This document shows, piece after piece, positions 7,256 to 32,486 of a stretch of 64,000 nucleotides of DNA. The notes beneath the pieces are model-generated. The model had not been told where the DNA came from. It searched no databases and saw nothing but the letters and a program-made list of their open reading frames with translations. The stretch spans positions 806,001 through 870,000 of the forward strand of contig SNWL01000005.1 in assembly GCA_004362315.1 (NCBI GenBank). The letters are read 5' to 3'. The DNA comes from Mycobacterium sp. BK086 (GTDB lineage Bacteria > Actinomycetota > Actinomycetes > Mycobacteriales > Mycobacteriaceae). How positions within the stretch are numbered: the stretch's first letter is position 1; each line of letters starts with the position of its first letter. The position numbers were made by a program, and so were the translations under genes.

Positions 7256-7261
7256 CACGCC

Positions 7262-10627: not shown

Positions 10628-12055
10628 CTACTCCGCCGGTGCGAAGCCCAGGACGGACTTGGACTCGAGGAACTCGTCGAGCCCCTCCTCGCCCCACTCC
10701 CGGCCGTTACCGCTCTGCTTGTAGCCACCGAACGGCGCGCTGATGTCGAACGCGTGGTTGATGGTCACCGCACCGGCCCGGATCCGCCGCGCCAGCGCGC
10801 GAGCCTGGTCCAGGTCGGCGCCCGAGACATACCCGTACAGGCCGTAGTCGGTGTCGTTGCCGATTTCGATGGCCTGATCAAGGTCGTCGTAACCGAGGAT
10901 GCACACCACCGGCCCGAAGATCTCCTCGCGGGCGATCGTCATGTCGTTGTTGACGTCGGCGAACACCGTCGGCTTGACGTAATAGCCGGTGGATAGGCCG
11001 TCGGGGCGGCCGGTGCCGCCCGCGACCACCGTCGCGCCCTCGTCGATGCCCTTCTGGATCAGCCCCTGGACCTTCTCGAACTGCGCCTTCGAGGCCACCG
11101 GCCCGATCGCCGACGTATCCGAGGCGTCCCCGACCTTGACACCCTCGGCGGTCGCGCGGGCCACCGTCACGGCCTCCTCGAGCCGGGTCTTGGGCACCAG
11201 CATCCGGGACGGGGCGTTACAGCTCTGGCCCGAGTTCACCATCATCACCGAGATACCGGCCGCAACGCTTTGGGCGAAGGCCTCGTCGTCCAGCACGATG
11301 TTCGGGCTCTTGCCGCCGAGCTCCTGGGCCACCCGCTTGACCGTCGGAGCGGCGTTACGGGCGACCTCGATACCGGCGCGCGTCGATCCGGTGAACGACA
11401 CCATGTCGATGCCGGGATGGCTGGACAGTGCGGCACCCACTCCGGGCCCGTCGCCGAAGACCATGTTGTACACGCCCGCCGGCAGCCCCGCCGCGTCCAC
11501 GACCTCGGTGAAGATCTGCCCCGAGAACGGTGCGACCTCCGACGGCTTGAGCACCATCGTGCAGCCCGCCGCCAGCGCCGGGAACACCTTGCAGGCGATC
11601 TGGTTGATCGGCCAGTTCCACGGCGTGATCAGCCCGCACACCCCGATCGGTTCCTTGACGACCATCGTGGCGCCGTGCGGCTCCTCGAAGGAGTAGTTCT
11701 TGAGCACGTCGATCGCGGTGGCCAGGTGAGCCAGGCCCATCATGACCTGCGGCCCCGCGGCCAGCCCCTCCGGCGCACCCATCTCCTCGTGCACCGCGGC
11801 CGCGAGATCGCCGGAGCGCTTCTGGTATTCGGCGAGCAGCGCCTGCAGCACGTCGAGGCGCTCTTCCCGCGTCGACTGCGACCAGGTGTTGAAGGCCTTG
11901 CGGGCGGCCTTGACGGCCTTGTCCACGTCGGCGTCGGAGCCCAGGGCGATCGTGCCGCCGACCTGTTCGAGGGTGGGGTTGTCGACGTCAAGGGTCTTCA
12001 GCTCGACCGGGTCAACCCACTGGCCATCGATATAGAACTTCAGATATTCACGCAT
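10628..12055 (-). CDS. NAD(P)-dependent aldehyde dehydrogenase
   Basis: 475 residues, standard ALDH superfamily length. The general base is E245 in ELGGKSP and the catalytic nucleophile is C279 in NSGQSCNAP. The cofactor-binding FTGSTRAG segment precedes them. It oxidises an aldehyde to its acid. It is the last catabolic gene of the long minus-strand operon, 27 bases after the ThDP-enzyme gene; that pairing suggests it oxidises the aldehyde released by a ThDP-dependent lyase. Confidence 0.93.
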   Translation of the reverse strand: MREYLKFYIDGQWVDPVELKTLDVDNPTLEQVGGTIALGSDADVDKAVKAARKAFNTWSQSTREERLDVLQALLAEYQKRSGDLAAAVHEEMGAPEGLAAGPQVMMGLAHLATAIDVLKNYSFEEPHGATMVVKEPIGVCGLITPWNWPINQIACKVFPALAAGCTMVLKPSEVAPFSGQIFTEVVDAAGLPAGVYNMVFGDGPGVGAALSSHPGIDMVSFTGSTRAGIEVARNAAPTVKRVAQELGGKSPNIVLDDEAFAQSVAAGISVMMVNSGQSCNAPSRMLVPKTRLEEAVTVARATAEGVKVGDASDTSAIGPVASKAQFEKVQGLIQKGIDEGATVVAGGTGRPDGLSTGYYVKPTVFADVNNDMTIAREEIFGPVVCILGYDDLDQAIEIGNDTDYGLYGYVSGADLDQARALARRIRAGAVTINHAFDISAPFGGYKQSGNGREWGEEGLDEFLESKSVLGFAPAE

Positions 12056-12082
12056 GGAAGCATCCTGTCACTGGTCGGGTTT

Positions 12083-13798
12083 TCACTGAGTGCCTTCGGC
12101 GTACCAGGTCCTGAATCGGTCGTATTTCGGCATCTCCTCGGAGTTGGCCTTCGGGTCGATGCACACGTGCACCACACCGACTTTGCCACTGGCGTAGGCG
12201 CGCTTGATCGCCGGGCCGATCTCGTCTTCTTTCTCGACGTACTCGCCGTGGCATCCGAAGCCCTCGGCGATCTTGTCCATCCGGACGTCCTTGCTCCAGT
12301 GCACGCCGGGCTGCGGCGACGGCTGCTCGAAAGTGCGCTTGTAGACCCCGACTTCGAGGCCCCACTGGTGGTCCACGCCGACCACGCACACCAGCGGCAG
12401 GTTCTGGCGGGCCGCGGTCTCCAATTCGGCGATATGGAACAGGAAGGCCGAGTCACTGGTCAGCAACATGACCGGACGCGTGCCGCCCTCGGCCACCGAG
12501 GCGCCCACCGCGTACGGCAGCCCGGTGCCGAGGTGGCCGAAGTTCTGGTTCCAGATCACGTCTCGCGGCTTGGTCTGCGAATAGGTCCACTGGAAGATCA
12601 CGGTCGCACCGCCGTCGCGGACCATGATCCCGTCCTCCGTGTACTCGTCGAACGCCTTGGTGGCTTCGACCACGTAGCGGGCCGGGTGCACCGGGGTACG
12701 GCCGCGCGGTGCCTCCTCGGCGACGCGGACCAGCTCGGCGGCGTCGGCCTTGATCAGGTTCTCCAGGTTGGCAGACGGGGCACGCGGGGTGTCGCGAAGT
12801 GCCTCGACCAGCTGCGGCACCACACCGCGCAGATCGCCCACCAGCGCGACGTCGACGGGCCGGTTGACACCGATCGCTGTCGGATCCTGTTCGACGTAGA
12901 CCCACTTGCGGCTCGCGTTGTTGGCCGCCCAGTGCTGAGTCTTGCCGTAGTGCATGGGTTCCCCGAGTTCGGTACCCAGGGCGACGCACAAGTCCGATTC
13001 TTCGACGGCCTCGTTGGCCGCCGGTGAGAACAGGTATGGGAACGTTCGGTCCTGCAGGCCGGGGATGAACGACGTGCCGCCCGAGGTCTGGATCACCGGG
13101 CAGGCCATCAGTTCGGCCAGCTCCCTGACCTCCTGCTGGGTGCGGGAGGTGTGCACCCCGTGGCCGACGAGCAGCACCGGGCTCTTGGCCTCGCGGATCA
13201 GTGCCGCGGCCTCGGCCACCTCACGGCTGCCTGCTCCCTGATTGACCAGCCGGTAGGCGCTGGGCGGCGGTGCGTCGGCGACATCGAGCTCGGAGAGGAT
13301 CACGTGCGACGGGAACTCGACGTAGGTCGGGCCCGGGGTGCCCGACATCGCCTTGCGGATGGCCTCGTGGATGATCTCGTCGGTCTGATCGGCGTACTCG
13401 ATGGAGCTGCTGTACTTGACCGACGCCGCGAAAAGTGGTTCCTGCTGGACGAATTGGATGCGGCCACGGCGCACCCGGCGTTCGGTGACGCGGGCCCGCT
13501 GTCCGCCGAGGAAGATCACCGGCGAGTTCTCGACGAGTGCGCACTGGATCGCACCGGCGATATTGGCCATGCCCGGACCCAGCGTGCCGATGCACAGGCC
13601 GGGCTTGCCGGTCATCCGGGACGCCGCTTCGGCCATGAAACCCGCGCTCAGTTCGTGGTGCGGCGCCACCACCGACCAGCCACGGGCCTCGGCCTCGGTG
13701 AACATGTGCACGAAGTTCGGGTCCGGTATGCCGAACAAAGTATTGACACCCTCGGCCTCGAACAGGTCGAGAATGCGCTTGTAAACCGGTACACCCAT
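12083..13798 (-). CDS. Thiamine-diphosphate-dependent enzyme, acetolactate synthase / 2-hydroxyacyl-CoA lyase-like
   Basis: 571 residues with the three-domain layout of ThDP enzymes: an N-terminal pyrimidine domain with the activating glutamate E49 in PHHELSAGF, a central domain, and a C-terminal pyrophosphate domain. The usual GDG of the metal/ThDP motif reads SDS in LLTSDSAFLFH, similar to the GDSAF form I recall in oxalyl-CoA decarboxylase and 2-hydroxyacyl-CoA lyase. The motif's closing Asn position reads VD. It may cleave or join C-C bonds of a 2-hydroxyacyl or 2-oxoacyl substrate. Location next to aldehyde dehydrogenase favours a lyase. Acetolactate synthase proper is less likely here, with no regulatory subunit. 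Confidence 0.85.
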   Translation of the reverse strand: MGVPVYKRILDLFEAEGVNTLFGIPDPNFVHMFTEAEARGWSVVAPHHELSAGFMAEAASRMTGKPGLCIGTLGPGMANIAGAIQCALVENSPVIFLGGQRARVTERRVRRGRIQFVQQEPLFAASVKYSSSIEYADQTDEIIHEAIRKAMSGTPGPTYVEFPSHVILSELDVADAPPPSAYRLVNQGAGSREVAEAAALIREAKSPVLLVGHGVHTSRTQQEVRELAELMACPVIQTSGGTSFIPGLQDRTFPYLFSPAANEAVEESDLCVALGTELGEPMHYGKTQHWAANNASRKWVYVEQDPTAIGVNRPVDVALVGDLRGVVPQLVEALRDTPRAPSANLENLIKADAAELVRVAEEAPRGRTPVHPARYVVEATKAFDEYTEDGIMVRDGGATVIFQWTYSQTKPRDVIWNQNFGHLGTGLPYAVGASVAEGGTRPVMLLTSDSAFLFHIAELETAARQNLPLVCVVGVDHQWGLEVGVYKRTFEQPSPQPGVHWSKDVRMDKIAEGFGCHGEYVEKEDEIGPAIKRAYASGKVGVVHVCIDPKANSEEMPKYDRFRTWYAEGTQ

Positions 13799-13817
13799 GC
13801 GAAACTCCTTGATTCCT

Positions 13818-14780
13818 TTACAGATAACGTTGAGCGAGCTGTTGGCGATAGGTCGCGGGCGAGCCGAACAGCGAACGGTTCAGCGCGGCCCGCTTGAGGT
13901 AGACGTGGATGCCGCTCTCCCACGTGTAACCGATGCCGCCATGCAGTTGCATGGCCTTGCCTGCGACGTCGACGGCGGCGCCGCAGGCGTACGACTTCGC
14001 CATCGCCGCCTTGACACGCGCGTCGGGCCGGTCGTCGGTCACGGCGTGCACTGCGGCACGGACGAGTTGGCGCGATACCGAGATCGCGACGTAGGCGTCG
14101 GCACACGCGTGCTTGACGGCCTGGAAGGAGCCGATCGGTCTGCCGAACTGCTGGCGCACCTTGGTGTAGGCGACGGTCGCGGCGAGCATGGCCTGCGCCA
14201 CGCCGAGGCTGTCGCACGCCACGGCAACAGCGGCGCGGTCGTGCAGCCGGCGGATCTGAGTCGGCGGATCCCCGTCGAACGCGTACGTTTCGACGACCTG
14301 GCCAGGTGTCACCACGGCCAGCCGTCGTGTCTCGTCCAGTACGGGCTGTGGTGCGACGGTGGCCTGCGTCTCCACCACCCGGTCGCCGTCGATGACGAGA
14401 ATCCGGTCGGCGCCTTCGGCATCGGGCACGTAAGCGAGTGGTTCGAACGCGACCGCCACCCGAGCGCTGCCCGCGGCGATCTCGGACAGCAGCCGATCGC
14501 GGGTATCGCTGGACTGCAACGCATTAACTACACCGACGGCGAGTACGGCGCTGCCGAGAAAACTGTTTGCGCTGGCCGCCCGGCCCATCTCCTCGCAGAG
14601 CACGGCCACCTCGGCGAACGTCGCGCCGGCACCGCCGAACTCCTCGGGCACTTCGAGCCCGACCCACCCCGCGTCGGTGAGCACCGGCCAGGCTGCGGAC
14701 CTGTCCTTGGCCAGCAGGTCGCCGGCCACCGAGCGGAGCTCGGCATGGAATTCGTCGAAAGCGCCTATCTCCGTGGCCAT
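13818..14780 (-). CDS. Acyl-CoA dehydrogenase, short subunit of pair 1
   Basis: 320 residues. The C-terminal half is recognisable ACAD sequence (VRQQFGRPIGSFQAVKHACAD, then AMQLHGGIGYTWE). The N-terminal half is short and diverged. The ATG at 14780 shares one base with the stop of the preceding 388-residue dehydrogenase. Side-by-side pairing of one long and one short ACAD is the pattern of the alpha2beta2 steroid-side-chain dehydrogenases (FadE28-FadE29 type), so this is probably one subunit of a heteromer that desaturates a bulky acyl-CoA. Which subunit carries the catalytic base is not settled here. Confidence 0.87.
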   Translation of the reverse strand: MATEIGAFDEFHAELRSVAGDLLAKDRSAAWPVLTDAGWVGLEVPEEFGGAGATFAEVAVLCEEMGRAASANSFLGSAVLAVGVVNALQSSDTRDRLLSEIAAGSARVAVAFEPLAYVPDAEGADRILVIDGDRVVETQATVAPQPVLDETRRLAVVTPGQVVETYAFDGDPPTQIRRLHDRAAVAVACDSLGVAQAMLAATVAYTKVRQQFGRPIGSFQAVKHACADAYVAISVSRQLVRAAVHAVTDDRPDARVKAAMAKSYACGAAVDVAGKAMQLHGGIGYTWESGIHVYLKRAALNRSLFGSPATYRQQLAQRYL

Positions 14781-15946
14781 CACACCGCACTCGGCTCTCG
14801 CGGCAAACCGAGTCCGCGTTCGGCGATGATGGTGCGCTGGATCTCGCTGGCGCCGCCGGGGATCGTCCACTCCCACGAGCCGATGAAGTCCAGCATCCAC
14901 GAGCCGGACTCCCAGCCGCTGGAGGCCGGTTTGGTGAGTTGGGTGTGGGCGGCCATGCCGCCGATCTCGGCTCCGAAATCGGTCATCCGTTGCAGTAATT
15001 CGCTGTAGAAGAGCTTGACCACCGAGGCGTCCGCGGGACCGACCGCACCGGTGTCGTGCTGCTGCACCAACTCCCGGCACAGCCCGCGCAGCCCGGCGAT
15101 CTCGATCTCGAACTGTGCCAGCCGGTCGGCGACCCGCGCATCCTCGATCGGCCGGCAGGCCTGCACCAGCCAGCGGAAGCCCGCATTGCCCAGTCGTTCA
15201 GCCAGTTCCAGCATGGTCATGCCGCGCTCGGCGCCAAGGGTGGCCTGGGCGACCTGCCAGCCCTGGTTCTCCGGGCCGATCAGGTTCGCGGCCGGGATCT
15301 GCACGCCGTCGAGGAAGATCTCGCAGAAATGCGAGTCGCCGACGGCGTTGCGGATCGGGCGCACCTCCACACCGGGACTGGTCATGTCCAGCAGGAAGTA
15401 CGAGATCCCCTGGCGCTTGGGGGCGTCCGGGTCGGTGCGGGCCAGCAGCAGGCACCAGTCCGCGTGCAATCCCCCACTGGCCCAGAGCTTCTGACCGTCG
15501 ACGATGAACGTGTCGCCGTCTCGTCGCGCGGTGGTGCGCAGACTGGCGAGGTCGGATCCCGCCTCGGGTTCAGAGAATCCCTGTACCCAGATCTCGCCGT
15601 CGAGGATCGCGGGCAGGTGGCGCTTCCGTTGTTCGTCGGTGCCGGCGACCAGCAATGTGGACGCGGCATGGTGGATACCGACGAAGGCCAGCACCAGCCG
15701 CGGCGCGTCGTGGGCCGCCAGTTCGGAATACAGCACGATCTGCTCGTCGACTCCCATGCCGCCGCCCCACTCGGCGGGCCAGTGCGGCACCGCGAAACCA
15801 GCCGCATGCAGCTCGGCGAACCACGCCTTCTGGAACGCCGCGAATTCTGCCTCGCCGGCCCCCGTTTGGGTCGCGCGCCAGTCGGCGGGCACGTGGGTTT
15901 CACACCACGCGCGGACCGTCGCCCGGAAGTCGTCCAGGTTCGTCAT
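14780..15946 (-). CDS. Acyl-CoA dehydrogenase, long subunit of pair 1
   Basis: 388 residues, normal length. ACAD landmarks are the FAD/substrate segment VQGFSEPEAGSDLASL, the beta-domain sequence VDGQKLWASG and the C-terminal GGASEIQRTIIAERGLGLPR. It introduces an alpha,beta double bond into an acyl-CoA using FAD. The start overlaps the Gfo/Idh gene by 4 bases (ATGA) and its stop overlaps the short subunit by 1 base, indicating tight translational coupling and equal expression of the pair. Confidence 0.92.
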   Translation of the reverse strand: MTNLDDFRATVRAWCETHVPADWRATQTGAGEAEFAAFQKAWFAELHAAGFAVPHWPAEWGGGMGVDEQIVLYSELAAHDAPRLVLAFVGIHHAASTLLVAGTDEQRKRHLPAILDGEIWVQGFSEPEAGSDLASLRTTARRDGDTFIVDGQKLWASGGLHADWCLLLARTDPDAPKRQGISYFLLDMTSPGVEVRPIRNAVGDSHFCEIFLDGVQIPAANLIGPENQGWQVAQATLGAERGMTMLELAERLGNAGFRWLVQACRPIEDARVADRLAQFEIEIAGLRGLCRELVQQHDTGAVGPADASVVKLFYSELLQRMTDFGAEIGGMAAHTQLTKPASSGWESGSWMLDFIGSWEWTIPGGASEIQRTIIAERGLGLPREPSAV

Positions 15947-16860
15947 GAGTTGGCCCGCAACTGGTCCATGGTGTGCGCCACCGCCACACCGTCGTCGAAC
16001 GAGGGGGCGATCTGTGTGCCGGTCCGGATCGCGTCGATGACCTCGCCGAGGAACGACGACAGCGCAGGCGGCGGCGATCGCCGTGGTGCAGGAGGAAATA
16101 GAGAAGTCTGCGGATCCTCGCCGGGCCGATACACCACGAGCGACGTGTCGGCGGTCAGCTCGATGGAGCCGGCACTGCCCAGCAGCGTCGCACGCGGTGT
16201 GAGCGGAACCGCCCCGGCGAAGCCCGTGTCGTGTGCGGCCGTGCAGCCGTTGGCCATCGTGAACCAGGCCGAGTAGGCATCCTCGGCGGTGGCCTCGGGC
16301 GGCGACCCGTCGATACGCGTCACACCCCCGCAGTCGGCCACCTCACTGTCGAACAGCCACCGCGTGAAGTCGATCAGGTGCGACCCGTAGGCGCCGATCC
16401 AACCGCCACCGCGCTCGCGGTCGTTGATCCAGCCGTAGCTGCGCCCACGCATACCGCTTCCATAGAACGTCCAGTTCAAATGCGCTGGTGTGCCGATTGT
16501 TCCGTCGTCGGCGAGCGTTTTGAGCTTCGCCCACGCCTCGTTGTAGCGGAACTCGAAGTTCAGGAAGTGCAGTACCCCGGCGTCCCGTGCGCGGTCGCGC
16601 ATCATCTCGGCCTCGGCCGCGTTGCGGCCGAACGGTTTGTCGCACAACACGGCGTGCCCGTGATCGATCGCCCCCAGCACGTGTTCGACATGCATGAACG
16701 GCGGCGAATGAACCGACACCAGGTCGACGTCCGACGCCAGAGCGGCTTCCACGGCCGCCTCGTCGCGGGGGCTGATCACCTCGACGTCGAGGCCGAGACT
16801 TTCGTACACCGGCGCGGCGGCGTGCTTACCGAACCCGGTGCCGAGCACCACGACCCTCAT
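15943..16860 (-). CDS. Gfo/Idh/MocA family oxidoreductase
   Basis: 305 residues. N-terminal Rossmann fold starting VVVLGTGFGKHA, then SVHSPPFMHVEHV, and a DKPFG motif in place of the usual EKP. The C-terminal alpha/beta domain contains WIGAYGSHLIDFTRWLF. Family members are NAD(P)-dependent dehydrogenases, often for sugars or cyclitols. Both ends overlap neighbours by 4 bases (ATGA), so it is fully embedded in the dehydrogenase operon and may reduce or oxidise a ring hydroxyl or ketone of the pathway substrate. That role is inferred only from position. Confidence 0.88.
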   Translation of the reverse strand: MRVVVLGTGFGKHAAAPVYESLGLDVEVISPRDEAAVEAALASDVDLVSVHSPPFMHVEHVLGAIDHGHAVLCDKPFGRNAAEAEMMRDRARDAGVLHFLNFEFRYNEAWAKLKTLADDGTIGTPAHLNWTFYGSGMRGRSYGWINDRERGGGWIGAYGSHLIDFTRWLFDSEVADCGGVTRIDGSPPEATAEDAYSAWFTMANGCTAAHDTGFAGAVPLTPRATLLGSAGSIELTADTSLVVYRPGEDPQTSLFPPAPRRSPPPALSSFLGEVIDAIRTGTQIAPSFDDGVAVAHTMDQLRANS

Positions 16861-17774
16861 GCGAACAGTCCTGTCAGCCCGTGCCCACCGACACGGTGCG
16901 CCAACAACTCTCGGGTGGCCGACAGCCCCAGCGGCAGGCGGCGCAGCGGCTGGCTGTAGCGCGACAGCCAGGACAACGTCGTCTCATCGCAGAAGCCGAC
17001 CGCGCCGTGCAGCTGATGGCACACCCGGAACACCACCTCGGCGGCCTCGATGGCGGCCAGCCGCAACGCCAGCGCATCGTCGAGAGCCTCAGGTCGACCG
17101 GTGGCGATGCTCCACAGCGCGTACTTGGCGAGGATGTCCACGCCACTGCGCTCCACCTCGGCGTCGGTCAGCTGAAACTGCACGCCCTGGAAACCCGACA
17201 GGGTCTGACCGAATTGCTTGCGCAGGCTGACATGGGCGATGGTCAACCCGATCGCGCGATCCAGCATGCCCAGCAGGGTCCAGGCACTCAGCACGAGTGG
17301 CAGCGCGATGTCGCCCGCACCGTTCTCGTCGATGTCGGCCAACTCCAGTTCGGTGACGAACGCCGGCCCGGCTACGCCCTGACCGGTCACCGTGCTGCGT
17401 TTCCCATCTAGAGTCACTGCCGCCCAACGTGATTGAACTCCGGCGATCGCCGCCGACGGGCGGGGTCCCGCCACGACGACCAGGCCACCGACGTCCAGGT
17501 CCGTCGGCGCCGACAACCGCTCCGCGACCGGATACGGCAACGCCCAGTACCCCGCGCTGCGGCACAGTGCCGCGGCCGCCTCCAGGCCGTCGGTATCGGT
17601 GCGCGGGTCGAGCTCCCACGCGCCCAGACCCGCCAGGACCGGGCCGACCAGTGACTCCCTGCTGTCGGGTTTGGCTTCGGCCTGCTGTACCAGCGTGTCG
17701 CCGCCCGCGGCGTCGAACGCACGAAGTGCCTCGCGGCCGAACTCAATCGCATCCTCGGAGATGTCCAGAATCAC
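16857..17774 (-). CDS. Acyl-CoA dehydrogenase, short subunit of pair 2
   Basis: 305 residues. C-terminal ACAD features are LRKQFGQTLSGFQGVQFQLTD and LHGAVGFCDETTLSWLSRY. The GTG start overlaps the stop of the 385-residue partner by 4 bases (GTGA); the open frame farther upstream is only the shadow of that partner. The short N-terminus matches the reduced subunit of heteromeric steroid-type dehydrogenases. It forms the second long/short ACAD pair in this operon. Confidence 0.87.
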   Translation of the reverse strand: MILDISEDAIEFGREALRAFDAAGGDTLVQQAEAKPDSRESLVGPVLAGLGAWELDPRTDTDGLEAAAALCRSAGYWALPYPVAERLSAPTDLDVGGLVVVAGPRPSAAIAGVQSRWAAVTLDGKRSTVTGQGVAGPAFVTELELADIDENGAGDIALPLVLSAWTLLGMLDRAIGLTIAHVSLRKQFGQTLSGFQGVQFQLTDAEVERSGVDILAKYALWSIATGRPEALDDALALRLAAIEAAEVVFRVCHQLHGAVGFCDETTLSWLSRYSQPLRRLPLGLSATRELLAHRVGGHGLTGLFA

Positions 17775-18928
17775 TTGACACCTGCCAGCATGCTGCGCGA
17801 CAACAGGATTCGTTGCATCTCGATGCTGCCGGACGAGACCGTCGATGCCTGCGAGTATTTCCAGTGATCCTCGACCTCGTCGAGAAACCACTTCGCCCGC
17901 GGATCGTCGTGTGACACCGCGGCGGCGATGTCCATCAACACCTCGGCGCTGTCCTGATCCAGCTTGGTGACCGCGATCCGGTAGGCGGCGGCGTCGCCGG
18001 GGCGAACCTGCCCGGTGTTCTGGAGTTCCACGATGCGGTAGGCCATCAGCCGCGCACGACGGCAGTGCGTCAACATCCGCACCCACCGGCCACGCAGTTC
18101 GGCAGGCACTTGGTCCCACCGGTCGCCGAGCACCGCAGGCGCCGCCGTCAGCAGCCGCTCACATCGCGCGTAGCGGGCGATCCCGACCCGCTCGAACGAG
18201 GTCACCTCCTGCACGATCGACCAGCCGTCGTCGACGGTGCCGAGCACATCGGCTTCCGTGACCCGCAGATCGTCGAAGAACACCTCGTTGAGGTGATGCG
18301 GGCCCAACATGGCGCGGATCGGCCGTACCTGGATCGCCGGATTGTCCATCGGCACCAGGAAGATCGTCAGGCCCTGTTGTTTCTTCTCACCCTTGGTCGT
18401 CCGGGCCAGCAGGAAACACCACTGCGCCATGGTCGCGTAGGACGTCCAGATCTTCTGGCCACTCACCAGCCAGCCGTCGCCATCACGACGCGCGGCGGTC
18501 CGCAGTGACGCCAGGTCCGAACCGGCCTCCGGTTCGGAGAAGCCCTGGCACCAGATCACTTCGCCATGGGCGATGGGCGGGAGATGTTTGCGCTTCTGCT
18601 CGTCGGTGCCGTGTCGCATGATGATGGGCCCCACCCAGTTGACACCCATGTACTGGGCGCCGCGGGGTTCGTGGTGCGCCCACATCTCCTCGCGCACCAC
18701 GGTCTGCTCCCATACCGAGACGCCACGACCACCGAACTCCTGCGGCCACGCCGGGCAGAGCAACTCGTGCTCGGCCAGTGTCCGGCAGAACTGTTGCGCC
18801 ACTTCCAGATCGGCGGGGTCGTCGGTGAACGCCCCGAGGAAGGCTTCGGGGACATGGTCTTTCACCAGGCCGCGCAGCTGTGAGCGTAGTGCGTCCGCCG
18901 ACTCCCCCATCTCAAAACTTAGGCTCAT
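17771..18928 (-). CDS. Acyl-CoA dehydrogenase, long subunit of pair 2
   Basis: 385 residues. It has WCQGFSEPEAGSDLASLRT, VSGQKIWTSYATMAQWC and the C-terminal tail STVSSGSIEMQRILLSRSML, all typical ACAD positions. The ATG follows GAGGAGGAG in an intercistronic element (18929-18982), giving a strong new ribosome entry point within the operon. It would act with the 305-residue partner immediately downstream. Confidence 0.92.
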   Translation of the reverse strand: MSLSFEMGESADALRSQLRGLVKDHVPEAFLGAFTDDPADLEVAQQFCRTLAEHELLCPAWPQEFGGRGVSVWEQTVVREEMWAHHEPRGAQYMGVNWVGPIIMRHGTDEQKRKHLPPIAHGEVIWCQGFSEPEAGSDLASLRTAARRDGDGWLVSGQKIWTSYATMAQWCFLLARTTKGEKKQQGLTIFLVPMDNPAIQVRPIRAMLGPHHLNEVFFDDLRVTEADVLGTVDDGWSIVQEVTSFERVGIARYARCERLLTAAPAVLGDRWDQVPAELRGRWVRMLTHCRRARLMAYRIVELQNTGQVRPGDAAAYRIAVTKLDQDSAEVLMDIAAAVSHDDPRAKWFLDEVEDHWKYSQASTVSSGSIEMQRILLSRSMLAGVK

Positions 18929-18982
18929 GCGGCGCTCCTCCTCATCGCTCGTGCCTCGCTCTGCATCGTCGCCGCCGCGGGC
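18929..18982 (-). repeat. Intercistronic element with strong ribosome-binding site
   Basis: The 54 bases between the CoA-transferase and the dehydrogenase read, on the minus strand, as a run including GATGCAGAGCGAGGCACGAG and GATGAGGAGGAGCGCCGC just before the ATG. From memory, near-identical strings precede many genes in mycobacterial genomes, so this looks like a copy of a dispersed intergenic element carrying a GAGGAGGAG ribosome site. The repeat status could not be tested within this window, where I saw only one copy. Confidence 0.4.
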
Positions 18983-22968: not shown

Positions 22969-22969
22969 G

Positions 22970-25227: not shown

Positions 25228-25248
25228 GACCCACTTTCATTGCCAGTC

Positions 25249-25260
25249 TTGTCCGGACAA
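25249..25260. promoter_or_regulatory. GntR-type operator 1 (TTGTCCGGACAA)
   Basis: Perfect 12-base palindrome between the divergent SDR and propeller genes. GT-N4-AC at its core is the pattern bound by GntR/HutC-type repressors. It lies about 35-45 bases downstream of the predicted minus-strand start, where a bound repressor would block elongation. A near copy lies at 25346. Confidence 0.65.
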
Positions 25261-25301
25261 ATAAATCGCTTCTGCCGACTGGAGAACATGATTCCGCAGC
25301 A

Positions 25302-25307
25302 GTTATA
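25302..25307 (-). promoter_or_regulatory. Extended -10 box (TG-C-TATAAC) for the long minus-strand operon
   Basis: On the minus strand TGCTATAAC forms an extended -10 element, predicting a start near 25295 and a leader of about 68 bases that includes operator 1. No convincing -35 was seen at 17 bases. Confidence 0.4.
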
Positions 25308-25345
25308 GCACCGTCAAGGGGGTCAACCGAGATAAGTCGCGCCTA

Positions 25346-25358
25346 TTGTCTGGACTAA
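25346..25358. promoter_or_regulatory. GntR-type operator 2 (TTGTCTGGACTAA)
   Basis: Near copy of operator 1, with 10 of 12 aligned bases identical and both GTC/GAC half-sites kept. It sits at about -36 to -24 relative to the predicted plus-strand start at 25382, over the -35 region, a standard repressor position. Confidence 0.6.
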
Positions 25359-25368
25359 GTTCGCTTGG

Positions 25369-25374
25369 TACGGT
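25369..25374 (+). promoter_or_regulatory. Leaderless -10 box (TACGGT) for the propeller-GntR operon
   Basis: TACGGT ends 7 bases before the ATG at 25382, and no Shine-Dalgarno sequence is present, which fits a leaderless transcript. Confidence 0.45.
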
Positions 25375-25381
25375 CACGCCG

Positions 25382-26995
25382 ATGAGCCAGCAGTCGCTAT
25401 CGCAGCAGGATGGGCGCTTCACCCTCACCCATCCCCCGGTTCTGGCCGAGGGATGGCGCGTGGAGCGGCGCACCGCGCCGAGCCGATTGTTCGGTGCCAA
25501 CGGTCTGCGCACCGGCCCCGACAGCCGGGTGTACATCGCCCAGGTGACCGGCAGTCAGATCAGCGCGTTGGACGTCACCACCGGCTTGGTCGACACCATC
25601 AGTGCCAAGGGCGGCGACATCATCGCCCCCGACGATGTCGCGTTCGACAGCGCCGGCAACCTCTACGCCACCGAGGTGATGGACGGCCGGGTCAGCGTCC
25701 GCTCCGCCGGTGGAGCCACCCGGGTGTTGCGCGACGACCTCCCGTGCGCCAACGGCATCACCGTCTACCGGGACCGGCTGTTCATCGGCGAATGCCGCGA
25801 GGGCGGCCGGCTGATGGAACTGGATACGGCCGGCGGCGGCCCGCCGCGGATTCTCTTGGAGAACGTGCCCTCGCCTAACGCCATGGAGGTCGGGCCGGAC
25901 GGGCTGCTGTATTTCCCGGTGATGGGCGCCAACGAGATCTGGCGTATCGATCCCGAGGGCGGCAGTCACGAAGTGGTGGCGACCGGGCTCGGTGTTCCCG
26001 ACGCGGTCAAGTTCGACAAAGACGGCTATCTCGTCTCCACCCAGGTGCACAGCGGTCAGGTGCTGCGGATCAATCCGCGCAACGGTGAACAGACGGTGTT
26101 GGCGAATCTCAATCCGGGACTGGACAATCTGACCTACGTGGGCGACCGGCTCTTCGTCTCGAATTTCACCGGCGAGATCACCGAGGTTCTCGACAACCAG
26201 CAGACCCGCGCGGTGCTGCCCGGCGGCTTGAACTGGCCGCTGGATCTCACGACCGGGCCCGACGGTGAGCTGTATGTTGCCGACGGCACCTACTTCTATC
26301 TCTTACGTGCGGACGGCACACTGCACACACTCGGAATGCTGTTCAGCCCCGGCTATCCCGGATTCGTGCGGGGTCTGACCGCGGCCGGCCCCGGCGAGTT
26401 CGTGGTGACGACCTCCGGTGGGCAGGTCGCACGGTTCCGGCCCGCCGAGGGTGAAAGTGATTTCCTCGCAGACGGATTGGACCAGCTCTACGGCGTCGCC
26501 ATCGGACCGCGCGGCATCGTGGCCGTCGAGCAGGGCACCGGACGGCTGTTGTCAGTGGACGGCGGCCGCACCGAGGTACTGGCCACCGGGCTCGACACTC
26601 CGGTCGGCGTGGCCATCGGGCCGGACGGCAACCCGCTGGTCAGCGAGCGTGGCAGAGTGATCAGGGTGGTCGGCACCGACAAGGAACCCGTGGTCGACGG
26701 ATTGGGTTGTCCGCAGGGAATTCTGGTGGCCGGCGACCTGCTCTACATCGTCGACGCGGACACCAAGTCGCTGATCGAGGTCGATCTGGCCGCCGGCACC
26801 CGCGCGACGATCGCTTCGGGCCTTCCGGTCGGGGCCCCGCCCGGGGTCACCCCCAAACCGCTGCGCGGCATGCCGCCGTTCTCCGGCCCGCAAGGACCGT
26901 TCGCTGGGATCACCGCCGGTCCGGACGGCACTCTGTACGTCTCGGCGGACTCCGAGGGCAGTGTGCTGGCTTTCAGCTCGGCTGGGCTGAGATGA
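25382..26995 (+). CDS. SMP-30/gluconolactonase/LRE-like beta-propeller protein, double length
   Basis: 537 residues made of many repeats of about 45 residues with a PDG/x-LY core (for example GPDGLLYFP, GPDGELYVAD, GPDGTLYVSA). SMP-30 and gluconolactonase proteins are single six-bladed propellers of about 300 residues; this one is nearly twice as long, suggesting two propellers or one extended propeller. No signal peptide. These folds often hydrolyse lactones with a bound metal. As the first gene opposite the Baeyer-Villiger operon, a role opening the lactone product is a reasonable inference. An in-frame ATG at 25346 would place the operator inside the gene, so 25382 is preferred. Confidence 0.85.
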   Translation: MSQQSLSQQDGRFTLTHPPVLAEGWRVERRTAPSRLFGANGLRTGPDSRVYIAQVTGSQISALDVTTGLVDTISAKGGDIIAPDDVAFDSAGNLYATEVMDGRVSVRSAGGATRVLRDDLPCANGITVYRDRLFIGECREGGRLMELDTAGGGPPRILLENVPSPNAMEVGPDGLLYFPVMGANEIWRIDPEGGSHEVVATGLGVPDAVKFDKDGYLVSTQVHSGQVLRINPRNGEQTVLANLNPGLDNLTYVGDRLFVSNFTGEITEVLDNQQTRAVLPGGLNWPLDLTTGPDGELYVADGTYFYLLRADGTLHTLGMLFSPGYPGFVRGLTAAGPGEFVVTTSGGQVARFRPAEGESDFLADGLDQLYGVAIGPRGIVAVEQGTGRLLSVDGGRTEVLATGLDTPVGVAIGPDGNPLVSERGRVIRVVGTDKEPVVDGLGCPQGILVAGDLLYIVDADTKSLIEVDLAAGTRATIASGLPVGAPPGVTPKPLRGMPPFSGPQGPFAGITAGPDGTLYVSADSEGSVLAFSSAGLR

Positions 26996-27732
26996 CGCAC
27001 GCCGAGTCCGGCGACCATCGCTACATCCAGGTGGCGCGTACGCTGCGCAAGGAGATCGTCGACGGGGTCTATCCCGTCGGTTCCCAGCTCCCCACCGAAC
27101 ATGAACTGTGCCAGCGATTTTCGGTGAGCCGCTACACCGTCCGGGAGGCGCTGCGGCGCCTTCGGGAGGACAACCTGGTCTCGTCGCGGCCACGTGCGGG
27201 CACCATGGTGGTCCCACGGCCCTCGTCACACGCCTACGTCCAGGACGTCGTCTCGATCAACGACCTGCTGGCCTTCGCCACGGGTGCCCGCTTCGCCATC
27301 GAATCCATCACCATGGTCACCATCGACGACGAGCTGGCGCAGCGCACCGGGCTGACGATCGGCGACGAATGGCTGGCCGTGCGCGGGTTTCGCCGCGCCG
27401 AACCCGCCGATGCCCCGGTCTGTCGCACCGAGTACTACATCAATCGCGCGTTCGCGGCGGTCGGCCGGATGTTGCAGAACCACACCGGTCCGATCTTTCC
27501 CCTCATCGAGGACCTGTTCGGGCTCAGCATCGTCGAAGTGCGCCAGGAGATCTCCGCTGTCCAGGTGGGCGCGGAATTGGCGGATGGGCTCAAGGTCGAG
27601 CCGGGCACACCCGCGTTGGAGATGCAGCGCACGTATACGACGTCGGACGGCGAGATCGCGCAGGTGACTGTGAACACGCACCCGGGCGCCCGGTTCCGCC
27701 ACTCGATGACGATGCGACGAGTGAAGGGCTGA
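26992..27732 (+). CDS. GntR family transcriptional regulator, HutC/UTRA type
   Basis: 246 residues. N-terminal winged helix: YIQVARTLRKEIVDGVYPVG, then TEHELCQRFSVSRYTVREAL (about residues 36-55), the standard GntR helix-turn-helix. The C-terminal UTRA ligand domain ends with ALEMQRTYTTSDGEIAQV. The ATG overlaps the propeller stop (ATGA), so regulator and propeller are co-expressed and the regulator probably represses itself. The two palindromes in the divergent region ahead of this operon are its likely targets, with a pathway acid or acyl-CoA as effector. Confidence 0.93.
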   Translation: MTHAESGDHRYIQVARTLRKEIVDGVYPVGSQLPTEHELCQRFSVSRYTVREALRRLREDNLVSSRPRAGTMVVPRPSSHAYVQDVVSINDLLAFATGARFAIESITMVTIDDELAQRTGLTIGDEWLAVRGFRRAEPADAPVCRTEYYINRAFAAVGRMLQNHTGPIFPLIEDLFGLSIVEVRQEISAVQVGAELADGLKVEPGTPALEMQRTYTTSDGEIAQVTVNTHPGARFRHSMTMRRVKG

Positions 27733-27738
27733 CCGGGC

Positions 27739-29304
27739 ATGCGGACCGCGTTGCGGAATTCCGAACTGGCCACGCAGGCCTATGCCAGTGGGTTGTGGGT
27801 GCGTGAGACTCTGGCGGATGCGTTGGCCGCGGCCGCGCGGGACACCCCGCACCGGGAGGTCCTCGTAGACGGCCGCGTACGCGTCGACTGCGCCACGTTG
27901 TACGACCGGGCGAGTCGGCTTGCCGGTGCCATGCGGGCCGGCATGCCGACCGGCAGCGTGGTGTCGTTCATGCTCCCGAACTGGCACGAGGCGGCGATCG
28001 TCTATCACGCGGCGACACTGGCGGGCATGGTCGTCAACCCGATCCTGCCGTCACTGCGCGACCACGAGCTGGCCTTCATCCTTTCCGATGCCGACGTCCG
28101 AATGATCTTCATCCCCGCCGAATTCGGTGGCCACGACTATGCGGCGATGCTGCAGCGGGTCACCGCGGCCATGCCCTCGCCACCCGCCGTTGTCGTGGTC
28201 CGCGGTGCGGCGCTGCCGGGCCAGATCAGGTTCGACGCACTCGACGCCGAGGCTCCCACCACACCCCCGGCGGTGGACCCCGACGCGGTCCGGATGATCA
28301 TGTATACCTCGGGCACCACCGGGCGTCCCAAAGGTGTTCTGCACAGTCAGAATTCGATACATGCTCTGATCCGTCAGCTCGGCCAGCACTGGCGCGTCGA
28401 TCCGGGGTCGGTGTACCTGGTGCCCTCCCCGATCGCCCACATCGGCGGTTCGATCTACGCCTTCGAGTTCCCGATCCTGCTCGGCGCGGCCGCGGTGCTG
28501 ATGGAGCGCTGGGATCCGGACGCGGCTGCCGAGATCATGGTCCGCGAGCGGTGTACCCACATGTCCGGAGCCACCCCGTTTTTGACGCATCTCCTGGCCG
28601 CCGCCCAGCGCGCCGGGACCCGGCTACCCGACCTGAGGGTGTTCATCTGCGGTGGTGCCTCGGTGCCACCCGCCCTGATCCGCAGTGCCGCCGACTATTT
28701 CGAGAACGCCGCGGTGACCCGGGTGTACGGCTCGACCGAGGTGCCCGTGATCTCCGTCGGAGCACCCGGCGATATCGACCACGCCGCCGACACCGATGGC
28801 CGGCCCGGAATCGCCGACGTGGTCATCGCCGAGGGCGAGATCCGTGCCCGCGGACCGCAGATGCTGCTGGGCTACCTGCATCCCGAGGACGAGGACGGCG
28901 CGTTCGACACCCAGGGCTACTTCCGCACCGGCGACCTCGGCCACTGGGTCGATGACCACTATCTCGTCGTCACCGGCCGGGCCAAGGACATCGTGATTCG
29001 CAATGGCGAGAACATCGCACCCAAGGAGGTCGAGGATGTTCTGCTCGGCCATCCCGACATCCACGAGATCGCGATCGTCGGAGTGCCGGATCCGCGCACC
29101 GGGGAACGCGCCTGCGCGGTGATCGTGACCGATCGCCAACCGGGGCTCGAGGTCGCCGATCTGCAAGCCTTCCTGCAGGCCACCGGTGTCGCGAAGTTCA
29201 AATGGCCCGAGCAGGTCGTCGTGTGGGACAGCTTGCCCAAGAACGACGCCGGCAAGGTTCTCAAACATCAGATTCGAGCGAGGTTGGTCGAGGCGGATGG
29301 GTGA
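27739..29304 (+). CDS. AMP-dependent acyl-CoA synthetase 1
   Basis: 521 residues. The AMP-binding P-loop motif [11 protein letters not shown] is near residue 190; [11 protein letters not shown] and the C-terminal lysine region [13 protein letters not shown] are present, so both domains are complete. It activates a carboxylic acid to acyl-CoA through an acyl-adenylate. It begins 6 bases after the GntR gene. Another synthetase follows two genes later; the two may act on different acids, before and after ring opening. Confidence 0.92.
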
Positions 29305-30079
29305 CATGCAAGTAGCGGTGGTGACCGGGGCCAGCAGCGGAATCGGATTCGCCTGTGCCACACAGCTCGCCGGGATGGGGATGGCCGTCGTCGGCACCGG
29401 ACGGGACGCGGACCGGCTGGCCGGGCTGGCTGATGCGATCGGTGATCCCGAGCGGATCGCGACGGTGGCCGTCGACCTCACCGACGACGACGCTCCGCAG
29501 CGGATCGTCGACGCCGCGGTCTCCCGCTGGGGCCACATCGACTTCCTGGTCAACAACGCCGGCGTCGGTAGCCCCAAACCCCTGCACGAGACCGACGACG
29601 AGACACTGGATTACTTCCTCGGGATCATGCTGCGCGCGCCATTTCGGTTGGCGCGCGACGTTATTGGCCACATGCGGCCGGGATCGGCGATCATCAACAT
29701 CACCTCCACGTTCGCGGTTGTCGGTGGCTTGCGCGGCGGCGCTTATTCGGCGGCCAAGGGCGGCCTGACGGCGCTGACCACGCACATCGCCTGCCAATAC
29801 GGCGCGCACGGGATCCGGTGCAACGCGGTCGCTCCCGGGGTCACGGTGACGCCGATGGTCGAGAAGCGGCTCGAGGATCCCGGTTTCAAGAAGATGCAGA
29901 CCGAAATGACACCGCACACTCGGCTCGGCCGGGTCGAGGACATCGCCGGTACCGTGGCGTTCCTGTGTTCGCCCGCAGGCAGTTTCATCAACGGGCAGAC
30001 CATCGTTGTCGACGGCGGCTGGAGCACCACCAAATACCTTTCGGACTTCGCGCTGTCCTCGGAATGGGTGGCGCGGTGA
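29297..30079 (+). CDS. SDR family oxidoreductase
   Basis: 260 residues. Cofactor motif [14 protein letters not shown], catalytic YSAAK in [10 protein letters not shown], and [12 protein letters not shown] near the end. The ATG at 29297 overlaps the synthetase stop by 8 bases; an ATG at 29306 is an alternative. It is probably an NAD(P)-dependent alcohol dehydrogenase of the same pathway, possibly acting on a hydroxyacyl-CoA. It is the third SDR of the divergent cluster. Confidence 0.9.
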
Positions 30080-31545
30080 ACCTGTTCGCCACCCTCGATC
30101 AGGCCGCCGCCCGGTTCGGCGACAGCGGTGCGATCTTCCACGGCGAGCGTCAGCTGCACACCTGGCGCCAGCTTCGCCAGCGCGCGCTGCGACTGGCTGC
30201 CGCGCTGCGCCACACGTACGCACCGGGGCAGCGCATCGCGATCGCCAGCGAGAACCGGGCCGAGATCGTCGAACTGTTCTATGCGGTGTGGGCCGCCGAG
30301 TGCGTGGTCGTCCCGGTCAATTTCAAGCTTCATCCCCGCGAGATGGTGCAGATCCTCGAAGACTCGGGCGCGGCAACGGTATTCGCATCTCCGAAGATCG
30401 CCGGGGAGCTGGCGCCGCTATCCCCCGTCGTCGTGGAACTGATCGGCGGTCCGGATTACGAGCAGCTTTTCAACGCACCGCCCGCGCCGGTCCCGTCGAC
30501 CGATCCGTCGACGCTCGCCTGGCTGTTCTACACCAGCGGCACGACCGGACGGTCCAAGGGCGCGATGCTGTCCCATCGCAATCTCACCGCGATGACCGTG
30601 GCGCATCTGGCCGACATCGACTCCCCCGACCAGAATTGCAGCCTGCTGCACGCCGCTCCGATGTCGCACGGCTCGGGGCTCTACATCGCGCCGTATGTCC
30701 TGCGCGGTGCCCGCCAGGTGGTGTCCGCATCGGGTTCCTTCGACCCCGACGAATTCCTCGACCTCTGCGATGTTCACCCCGGATCGTCAGCCTTCCTGGC
30801 GCCCACCATGATTCAGCGTCTCGTCGCGACCGGGCGCAACGCACCCGCCGCGCTGCGCACGATCGTCTACGGGGGCGGCCCGATGTACGTCGACGGCCTC
30901 AAGAAGGCGATGGCCGCGTTCGGCCCGATCTTTGCCCAGATCTACGGGCAGGGCGAAGCGCCGATGACGATCACCGGACTGCGCCGCGCCGACCATGAAT
31001 CCGAGGACGACGCGATCCTCGGCTCGGTGGGCTGCGCGCGTTCCGGCGTCGAGGTGGCGGTGCTGGGCGAGGACGGTGCACGTGCCGAGGCGGGGCAGAT
31101 CGGCGAGATCGTGTGCCGCGGCGACGTGGTGATGTCCGGGTACTGGAACAACGCCGACGCCACCCGCGACACCCTCAGGGACGGCTGGCTCTACACCGGC
31201 GATATGGGGTCGTTCGATCACCGGGGCTACCTCACGCTGCGGGACCGTTCCAAGGACGTGGTGATCAGCGGGGGAAGCAATATCTATCCGCGGGAGGTCG
31301 AGGAGGCACTCCTGGAGCACCAGGGCGTGGTCGAGGCCTGTGTGGTCGGCGCCCCGGACCCCGAGTGGGGCGAGGTGGTGGTGGCCTTCATCGTCGGCAC
31401 CGCGGCCGGCGAGGCGCTCGATGCTCACCTGCTGGACCGGATCGCCCGCTTCAAGCGCCCCAAGCGCTATGTCTTCGTCGATGACCTGCCCAAGAACAGC
31501 TACGGCAAGGTCCTCAAGCGCGAGTTGCGCGCCCGGCTCGGGTAA
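30076..31545 (+). CDS. AMP-dependent acyl-CoA synthetase 2
   Basis: 489 residues. P-loop [11 protein letters not shown] near residue 153, then [17 protein letters not shown] and a C-terminal [16 protein letters not shown] with the catalytic lysine. The GTG start overlaps the SDR stop by 4 bases (GTGA); the frame is open upstream but antisense-type and lacks the family N-terminus. It likely makes the CoA thioester consumed by the dehydrogenases of the minus-strand operon. Confidence 0.92.
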
Positions 31546-31562
31546 CGACATTCTCCTCTGCA

Positions 31563-31568
31563 TAGAAT
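31563..31568 (+). promoter_or_regulatory. Leaderless -10 box (TAGAAT) for the enoyl-CoA hydratase
   Basis: TAGAAT ends 6 bases before the ATG at 31575, so the hydratase probably has its own leaderless promoter in addition to read-through from the synthetase operon 29 bases upstream. Confidence 0.55.
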
Positions 31569-31574
31569 GCCGCT

Positions 31575-32486
31575 ATGTCCCAGGATTACACATTCCTCAC
31601 CTACGAAGAGCTCGATGAAGGCCGCATCGCGCGCATCATGCTCAACCGGCCCGAGGCGCGCAACGCGCAGAACCGCGGCCTGCTGGTCGAGCTGAACGAA
31701 GCGTTTCTGCGGGCTGAGGCCGACGACAACGTGCGGGTGGTCATCCTGGGCGGCCACGGCCCGATGTTCTCCTCCGGCCACGACCTCGGGTCCGCAGTCT
31801 CGCGGGCCGAGTACACCCCCGGACCTGACCAGCACCCCAGCTTCCAGGGCCTGGGCGCCAACCGGGAGGGCGCCGAGAAGCTGATGCTGCAGGAGTGGCA
31901 CCACTTCTTCGCCAACACCCGCCGCTGGCGTGACCTGCGCAAGATCACCATCGCGCAGGTGCACGGTGACGTCTACGCGGCGGCGCTGATGCTGATGTGG
32001 GCGTGCGACCTGATCGTGGCGGCCGAGGGCACCCGATTCGCCGACGTGGTGGGCACTCGGCTGGGTATGTGCGGTGTGGAGTACTTCGCCCACCCGTGGG
32101 AGTTCGGACCCCGCAAGACCAAGGAGCTGATGCTCACCGGTGACGCGATGGAGGTGGACGAGGCCTACCAGCTGGGCATGGTCTCGAAGGTCTTCCCGCA
32201 GGACGAGCTGGCCGACAAGACGCTGGCGTTCGCCCGCCGAATCGCCGAGGTGCCGACCATGGCGGCGCTGCTGGCCAAGGAAGCGGTCAACCAGACGCAG
32301 GACAACATGGGCTTCTACAACGCGCTGAACGCCTGCTTCACCCTGCACCAGCTCAACCACTCGCACTGGGCGCAGGTGCATGAGGAGGGCTGGCCGGTGG
32401 GCCTCGAGTCGGACGGTCTGCCGAACTGGAAGACCGCTCCGCCGATCGTGCCCGCCGTCAAGGACCAGGTTCGCGCCGAGGGCTGA
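31575..32486 (+). CDS. Enoyl-CoA hydratase/isomerase family protein
   Basis: 303 residues. Crotonase-fold signatures are the oxyanion segment SSGHDLGSA and VHGDVYAAALMLMWACDLIVAAE. It would hydrate the enoyl-CoA made by the paired dehydrogenases, completing the beta-oxidation-like steps. The usual catalytic glutamate positions are replaced around RLGMCGVEYFAHPWE, so hydration cannot be assumed; isomerisation, or cleavage of a beta-keto ring as in steroid-ring hydrolases of this fold, is possible. It ends the plus-strand operon at a clear terminator. Confidence 0.9.
   Translation: MSQDYTFLTYEELDEGRIARIMLNRPEARNAQNRGLLVELNEAFLRAEADDNVRVVILGGHGPMFSSGHDLGSAVSRAEYTPGPDQHPSFQGLGANREGAEKLMLQEWHHFFANTRRWRDLRKITIAQVHGDVYAAALMLMWACDLIVAAEGTRFADVVGTRLGMCGVEYFAHPWEFGPRKTKELMLTGDAMEVDEAYQLGMVSKVFPQDELADKTLAFARRIAEVPTMAALLAKEAVNQTQDNMGFYNALNACFTLHQLNHSHWAQVHEEGWPVGLESDGLPNWKTAPPIVPAVKDQVRAEG

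Follow-up and report, generated by a model that had tools for sequence, protein, structure and literature searches.

The camphor pathway of Pseudomonas putida starts with a P450 and proceeds through hydroxylation, alcohol oxidation, ring opening by a type II, luciferase-like Baeyer-Villiger enzyme and CoA-linked steps; to our knowledge it has no Rieske oxygenase, thiamine diphosphate (ThDP)-dependent enzyme, CaiB-type CoA-transferase or propeller. Camphor breakdown in P. putida is also mentioned in PMC12239570, the available portion of which reports that in Caenibius tardaugens a Baeyer-Villiger oxidation of progesterone can be carried out either by a luciferase-like monooxygenase (LLM) or by a type I Baeyer-Villiger monooxygenase (BVMO), and that the pdc progesterone cluster of this organism comprises four genes in 4.6 kb with TetR and LuxR regulators. 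The C-19+ steroid cluster of M. smegmatis, described with kstD, kshA and kshB in the available portion of PMC5962712, is a second mycobacterial catabolic cluster apart from the cholesterol KstR regulon. Here we consider another gene cluster that likewise stands apart, at positions 10628 to 32486 of a 64,000-nucleotide stretch (the window), which covers positions 806001-870000 of contig C3 in the 6.93-Mb genome of Mycobacterium sp. BK086. Like the camphor pathway, it would combine hydroxylation, alcohol oxidation, Baeyer-Villiger oxidation and CoA-linked steps, while domain scans of its proteins revealed none of the three genes of the C-19+ cluster.

The cluster is a conserved catabolic regulon, and its operon is also found in other Mycobacteriales, in Sphingobium and on a plasmid of Rhodococcus. 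Our principal interpretation, to which we assign a probability of roughly 0.55, is that its GntR protein governs a modular gene set for the breakdown of a bulky alicyclic, probably isoprenoid, ketone or acid, in which one C-C cleavage is carried out either by a ThDP enzyme together with an aldehyde dehydrogenase (ALDH) or by an LLM. For the proposition that this is an undescribed and widespread mycobacterial regulon, where the ThDP lyase with ALDH and the LLM are mutually exclusive and have been swapped several times in a constant core, the odds appear to us evenly balanced. A preliminary description of the same DNA had known of no described mycobacterial pathway with exactly this set, and in the open-licence literature searched no description of the cluster was found. 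The lumichrome (lum) pathway was set aside, as its enzymes differ in the portion of PMC12752717 available, and so was the acetovanillone/acetophenone pathway, for which the corresponding portion of PMC9618137 gives a different gene set. Beyond what had been described, the set proves to be modular and common across the genus, and ThDP enzyme plus ALDH is apparently one of two interchangeable solutions.

Results

The cluster and its genes

A block of 12 genes on the minus strand opposes a block of six on the plus strand, with about 150 bp between them. The minus block runs from SDR2, the first of three short-chain dehydrogenases/reductases (SDRs) to be named (25227), through Rieske, BVMO, SDR1, CaiB, ACAD2a, ACAD2b, Gfo/Idh, ACAD1a, ACAD1b and ThDP to ALDH (10628), and the plus block, from 25382 to 32486, through propeller, GntR, FADD1, SDR3, FADD2 and crotonase. 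The four acyl-CoA dehydrogenase (ACAD) genes form two pairs. Gene classes were assigned from calls of open reading frames (ORFs) and from Pfam and NCBIfam scans of the cluster proteins. Several long ORFs with GTG or TTG starts begin too far upstream, and their starts were revised: the Rieske gene spans 22970-24382, not 22970-24922, and the propeller is taken to start at ATG 25382, since TTG 25346 falls within an operator-like palindrome. With the revised starts, 9 of the 16 within-block junctions overlap and the largest gap is at most 67 bp, a spacing like that of tight operons. The features are the following.

10628..12055, minus: ALDH, in a module with the ThDP enzyme (PF00171, 486 bits)
12083..13798, minus: ThDP-dependent enzyme, 571 aa, probable C-C lyase (PF02776, PF00205, PF02775)
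13818..14780, minus: ACAD1b, acyl-CoA dehydrogenase subunit, IpdE2-like (PF00441; NF050027 188 bits, below the cut-off of 450)
14780..15946, minus: ACAD1a, acyl-CoA dehydrogenase subunit, PimC-like (PF02770/PF00441/PF02771; TIGR03204 215 bits, below the cut-off of 624)
15943..16860, minus: Gfo/Idh/MocA oxidoreductase, optional (PF22725, PF01408)
16857..17774, minus: ACAD2b, acyl-CoA dehydrogenase subunit (PF00441)
17771..18928, minus: ACAD2a, acyl-CoA dehydrogenase subunit, PimC-like (PF02770/02771/00441; TIGR03204 191 bits, under the cut-off)
18983..20140, minus: CaiB-type family III CoA-transferase (PF02515 382 bits; best PDB match the formyl-CoA transferase 10uh, 202 bits)
20137..21051, minus: SDR1, PRK07791-like dehydrogenase (PF00106 148 bits; NF005861 227 bits, below the cut-off of 373; TGAGRGLG and YAAAK)
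21052..22902, minus: type I BVMO (motifs FAGHVFHSARWD, GGGFAG, GTGATG and GGVWYWNRFPGIQCD; 5mq6 399 bits)
22970..24382, minus: Rieske non-heme iron oxygenase alpha subunit, 470 aa (PF00355, PF00848; CMH..CGFH and NWKVAMEAFNETYH)
24382..25227, minus: SDR2, first gene of the minus operon (NF005559 178 bits, below the cut-off of 215; SGAGGGGIG and YGTAK)
25249..25260, no strand assigned: operator-like palindrome TTGTCCGGACAA, SDR2 side
25280..25298, no strand assigned: second conserved element, TGGAGAACATGATTCCGCA in the window, an imperfect palindrome in relatives
25346..25357, plus: operator-like palindrome TTGTCTGGACTA, propeller side, covering a -35-like box, with TACGGT 17 bp downstream of it (boxes judged by eye)
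25382..26995, plus: large beta-propeller, 537 aa, SMP-30/NHL-like, possible lactone hydrolase (PF08450 45.7 bits; NF033206 110 bits, above the cut-off of 80)
26992..27732, plus: GntR/HutC-type regulator with GntR helix-turn-helix and UTRA domains (PF00392 71.7 bits, PF07702 59.8 bits)
27739..29304, plus: acyl-CoA synthetase FADD1 (PF00501 235 bits)
29297..30079, plus: SDR3 (PF13561 205 bits)
30076..31545, plus: acyl-CoA synthetase FADD2 (PF00501 238 bits)
31575..32486, plus: crotonase-fold protein, rarely in the cluster (NF006140 395 bits, above the cut-off of 280)

Every enzyme family that the preliminary description had named is thus present, the three SDRs included, and its notion of one divergent, apparently co-regulated catabolic set is supported.

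Conservation and modularity

A Rieske orthologue with an E value of 1e-180 or better occurs in 228 of 297 sampled genomes of the genus (77%), and one at 1e-130 in 45 of 397 genomes of the order. Gene content was counted in 80 named loci, which are the best 80 of 547 relatives and hence biased to close ones; those nearest to the Rieske protein of the window are nearly all from Mycolicibacterium or Mycobacterium. A core is found in most of them (SDR2 79, BVMO 78, SDR1 76, propeller 76, GntR 76, SDR3 75, FADD1 75, CaiB 75, FADD2 72), and beside it stand modules: the ACAD genes in 59-63, ThDP in 43, Gfo/Idh in 18, ALDH in 7 and the crotonase in 1. The counts for far genes such as ThDP and ALDH are lower bounds, because the flanks covered at most 10 kb and a few loci lie on short contigs. 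The crotonase additionally belongs to the cluster in three genomes (G004, G024, G018). The acyl-CoA dehydrogenases, Gfo/Idh and the crotonase are optional modules. Among 20 hand-picked genomes, the propeller is present in all 14 with the Rieske orthologue and in none of the 6 without it. Single in-frame stops were seen in three Rieske orthologues among the matches listed (G152, G555, G603), possibly decayed copies or sequencing errors.

The six genomes of the order outside the genus with a Rieske match all have propeller, SDR2, Rieske, SDR1, ThDP and ALDH; the full colinear operon, BVMO included, is found in G330, G321, G522 and G555, and a rearranged one in G338 and G060. The operon is colinear on the Rhodococcus plasmid. 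A Sphingobium plasmid carries most of the set in two loci, where the ALDH and propeller matches are fragmentary and unannotated, and on a plasmid of M. branderi most of it lies next to P450 genes, at two places separated by about 70 kb; the compared part of that plasmid gave no match to SDR2. Most of the 80 named loci preserve the gene order, as do other genera and families and a second phylum, and the cluster is therefore not a chance assembly. Two leads were dropped: the P450s of the M. branderi plasmid as a clue to the substrate, since they reach no curated cut-off and have no telling relative, and the BVMOs on Sphingobium plasmids of strains RC1 and TomTYG, which are 42-46% identical and have different neighbours in the one examined.

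Two mutually exclusive gene sets

When the extra genes of the loci were clustered an LLM gene surfaced, one that the genome of the window lacks. The best PDB match of the LLM is a luciferase alpha chain (96 bits), and the industrial strain M. neoaurum ATCC 25795 (locus L100) has the LLM form of the cluster. Genomes were scored with E thresholds of 1e-180 for Rieske, 1e-200 for ThDP and 1e-160 for LLM, with only the few best candidates scored per genome. Among the 228 genomes with the Rieske gene, 151 have only ThDP, 75 only the LLM, none has both, and two have neither; these, G083 and G136, are drafts broken into about 540 and 420 contigs and 7% contaminated. The 69 genomes without the Rieske gene have ThDP in two cases (G169, G291) and the LLM in none; the totals over all 297 genomes are 153 for ThDP and 75 for the LLM. 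Fisher's test of the exclusion gives p = 1e-58, with kinship ignored. The corresponding tally over the named loci (ThDP 43, LLM 26, both 0, neither 11) suffers from the 10-kb flanks, and the whole-genome counts are therefore preferred.

The LLM gene sits between Rieske and BVMO in 32 of 33 LLM loci, a set in which named and unnamed loci may share genomes; in the 33rd only Rieske is beside it. An ALDH match of at least 73% accompanies ThDP in 17 of 17 genus genomes and the LLM in 0 of 7, as counted in the fetched stretches. In a tree of concatenated SDR2, Rieske, propeller and SDR1, built from 73 loci (95 minus 18 of unclear state and 4 duplicates), the ThDP/LLM state changes five times, and at least three of these changes are forced by well-supported branches. 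These observations suggest that ThDP plus ALDH and the LLM replace each other, as two unrelated solutions for one oxidative C-C cleavage; such a common step is the simplest reading, given their chemical equivalence, their exclusion and their shared neighbours.

Of the 80 named loci, 17 also carry a gene for a TauD/TfdA dioxygenase (e.g., L094:14495-15337): 16 of them have it between BVMO and SDR1, and one has it next to BVMO. Related genes occur within the cluster or close to it on the plasmids of Rhodococcus and M. branderi.

The shared promoter

The divergent promoter contains two palindromes (TTGTCYGGACWA) approximately 96 bp apart. Both, each with at most one mismatch, are present in 72 of 73 divergent regions (the window and 72 of the 80 named loci, eight being dropped because a gene was missing or the genes were more than 400 bp apart), and in 71 their spacing is 95-98 bp, while none of 3650 mononucleotide shuffles had two sites. 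The palindromes are candidate sites for the GntR protein that the cluster encodes. G022 and G016 have the cluster in two separate pieces, and the SDR2 piece of G022 retains an exact site; a second propeller copy in G126 also carries an operator-like site. On the M. branderi plasmid, the operator pattern gives six strand matches at three places, one ahead of the ThDP gene and the other two ahead of a P450 gene, when 0.25 are expected, and none of 100 shuffles had as many. A further site there, with one mismatch, precedes the GntR gene, but 7 of 100 shuffles equalled that.

The other exact site in the genome of the window (C7:181268) is surrounded by no cluster homologue above 29% identity, and we claim no wider regulon for that genome. 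An operator-like match in Sphingobium (L204:6293), being a single hit, was not used. Between the two operators, the element at 25280-25298 reads AACACTATTC in 67 of 72 relatives, where it forms an imperfect TGCGGAA-N5-TTCTGCA palindrome; the Sphingobium cluster encodes an IclR regulator.

The individual enzymes

Type I BVMOs are recognized by two GxGxxG motifs and an FxGxxxHxxxW fingerprint, and the cluster enzyme has GGGFAG and GTGATG together with FAGHVFHSARWD. Its best solved match is 5mq6, which we take to be the polycyclic ketone monooxygenase (residues 12-614 of 616 aligned). PtlE (pentalenolactone/neopentalenolactone D synthase), an enzyme of biosynthesis, belongs with 5mq6 to the same BVMO group, also with a nearly full-length match, and the score against its NCBIfam model (NF045818), 690 bits under a cut-off of 1100, does not make the cluster enzyme an equivalog. 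The PtlE-type profile matches 37 places in the whole genome G000; although several of these are fragments of a single gene, the genome is rich in such monooxygenases.

The Rieske protein has the CxH...CxxH cluster motif and the catalytic PF00848 domain; no ferredoxin, reductase or Rieske beta subunit was found among the scanned cluster proteins. The regulator has the two domains of the GntR/HutC family, and the best NCBIfam matches of FADD1 are NF004758 (353 bits) and the cyclohexanecarboxylate-CoA ligase TIGR03208 (340 bits), both far under cut-off. The crotonase lacks the usual G.A.GGG.E motif, despite passing the NF006140 cut-off.

A ThDP enzyme is expected to have a catalytic Glu and a Mg-binding Asp, and here the N, M and C domains are accompanied by HHE at 47-49 and SDSAF at 448. 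The top PDB match is an acetolactate synthase (191 bits directly, 214 bits by profile), with oxalyl-CoA decarboxylase at 202 and the dione hydrolase at 130 bits; the NCBIfam scores for oxalyl-CoA decarboxylase (217 and 196 bits) and 2-hydroxyacyl-CoA lyase (161 bits) stay under their cut-offs of 557, 739 and 600. SDSAF resembles the GDSAF of oxalyl-CoA decarboxylase and the lyases, although the scores there are not above that of acetolactate synthase. Oxalyl-CoA decarboxylase, 2-hydroxyacyl-CoA lyase and cyclohexane-1,2-dione hydrolase are of the same superfamily and cleave C-C bonds beside a carbonyl, but their 130-202 bits lie far below the 70-74% identity inside the enzyme's own family, to which the Sphingobium relative (72% identical) belongs. 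By sequence it appears to form its own subfamily near oxalyl-CoA decarboxylase, 2-hydroxyacyl-CoA lyase and acetolactate synthase, and it is probably a C-C lyase.

The best matches of the propeller are designed propellers, and its length leaves room for two propellers. All 15 sequences compared share N167 and D208, which by position are plausibly two of the three SMP-30 metal ligands, with no position assigned to the third. A phage search with the protein gave no match. Of the lactonase-like propeller that had been proposed, the fold and the SMP-30-like matches hold, while the lactonase role stays conjectural, the likeness to SMP-30 being weak.

Neighbouring genes

To the left of the cluster, 713-10200 holds alpha/beta hydrolases, an amidohydrolase, a BVMO-like protein (4324-6264), a TetR regulator and an MFS transporter, and at 7975-8829 lies a mycofactocin-coupled SDR (TIGR03971 339 bits, above the cut-off of 300). 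On the other side are an MCE-family gene (33729-35030) and a long ORF of 930 aa with isocitrate-lyase matches (34839-37631), a pair that, among the fetched unnamed loci, lies beside the cluster only in G004, G024 and G018. Farther out, at 39156-41238 and outside the cluster, a KshA-like Rieske oxygenase gene (39156-40166) overlaps a gene for a diaminopentanoate-dehydrogenase-like protein, which is found in 17 of 86 loci compared.

Discussion

A bulky alicyclic or isoprenoid ketone is our best guess for the substrate, because the nearest relatives of the BVMO are of the polycyclic-ketone and pentalenolactone types. The Rieske enzyme would hydroxylate the ring, the SDRs would produce ketones, the BVMO would convert a ring ketone to a lactone and the propeller would open it; CaiB and the FADD enzymes would then add CoA, and the paired acyl-CoA dehydrogenases with SDR1 would trim the product. 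Another C-C bond, next to a carbonyl, would be cleaved oxidatively. In the genome of the window, the ThDP lyase would yield an aldehyde that ALDH oxidizes to the acid (R-CO-X to R-COOH); in other genomes the LLM, resembling type II BVMOs, would insert oxygen and so arrive, after hydrolysis, at the same acid. That the LLM gene adjoins the Rieske gene, as ThDP does in Sphingobium, suggests that the substrate of the cleavage would be an oxygenated ring ketone from the Rieske enzyme. Most likely, both operons are kept off by the GntR regulator until it binds an intermediate of the pathway. Of the interpretation first put forward, the divergent catabolic set and the BVMO stand, whereas the substrate class and the order of steps remain proposals.

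Several points weigh against this account. The switches between ThDP and LLM are few, and with only three independent pairs on well-supported branches the tree-aware sign test (p 0.25) cannot reach significance. In C. tardaugens, the LLM replaces the BVMO (as stated in the available portion of PMC12239570), whereas the mycobacterial LLM replaces ThDP plus ALDH and the BVMO is kept. The Rhodococcus plasmid has ThDP plus a different LLM (32% identical), and the exclusion is therefore confined to this genus and to the orthologous LLM. There is also a resemblance between the LLM and F420-dependent enzymes (TIGR03619, 119.5 bits against a cut-off of 166.9), no reductase for it or for the Rieske enzyme is encoded in the cluster, and the propeller matches SMP-30 and lactonases weakly. 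As to the regulator, an exact-pattern search found no operator site in G016, and a one-mismatch search of the window's genome gave 32 strand matches against 23 in a reversed control, for which reason the regulon claim is restricted to the cluster in that genome.

The strongest alternative, in our judgment less likely than not, overlaps with the account above: the ThDP enzyme would be a 2-hydroxyacyl-CoA lyase, and its module an alpha-oxidation in which a single carbon is split off as formyl-CoA next to a methyl branch and CaiB recycles the CoA. Oxalyl-CoA decarboxylase and 2-hydroxyacyl-CoA lyases are indeed among the near solved relatives of the ThDP enzyme, the best solved match of CaiB is a formyl-CoA transferase, and a TauD/TfdA gene adjoins ALDH on the Rhodococcus plasmid and lies near ThDP on the M. 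branderi plasmid; yet acetolactate synthase scores slightly higher, CaiB is retained in clusters without ThDP and TauD is not tied to ThDP. A little less probable still is that ThDP and LLM belong to two sub-pathways for different substrates around a common core, rather than being two enzymes for one step. The small number of switches, three to five, is consistent with this, and so is the greater frequency of TauD/TfdA genes in named loci with the LLM (12 of 26) than in those with ThDP (3 of 43); but differing substrates should leave more genomes with both genes or with neither, when in fact exactly one is present in 226 of 228.

We consider it very unlikely that the cluster is a known mycobacterial steroid cluster, be it of the KstR/KstR2 regulon or the C-19+ cluster. 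The IpdE2-like and paired acyl-CoA dehydrogenases would fit, but the cluster proteins contain no KstD, KshA or Hsa-type domain, two of which name genes by which the C-19+ cluster is described, and the window has neither TNNAACNNGTTNNA nor GCAANNTTGC, presumably the operator motifs of the KstR/KstR2 type. The available portion of PMC12239570 mentions an LLM, MSMEG_4862, in an ADD+ cluster of M. smegmatis, which would also speak for a steroid cluster.

Biosynthesis of a pentalenolactone-like lactone is hardly credible: although the BVMO scores 690 bits against the PtlE family and accessory TauD proteins weakly match PtlD, the scores are far under curated cut-offs, no terpene synthase domain occurs among the cluster proteins, and CoA ligases, acyl-CoA dehydrogenases and CoA-transferase indicate breakdown; the 77% prevalence in the sampled genus genomes is a further point against it. 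Degradation of a betaine- or carnitine-like compound is equally hard to credit. Of the solved structures, carnitine monooxygenase is nearest to the Rieske protein (96.7 bits), and in NCBIfam the nearest family is the glycine betaine monooxygenase GbcA (NF058607, 123 bits), but 123 bits is far under the cut-off of 670 and a PtlE-type BVMO with paired acyl-CoA dehydrogenases is unsuited to a small quaternary amine.

A catabolic regulon with two solutions for one cleavage is accordingly the reading we retain. A cluster of about nine to eighteen genes in about three quarters of the sampled genomes of the genus probably serves a common natural compound, and the palindrome offers a handle for finding the inducer. 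If the displacement is true, the right intermediate should be attacked both by ThDP plus ALDH and by the LLM, and identifying the substrate would come down to a simple test.

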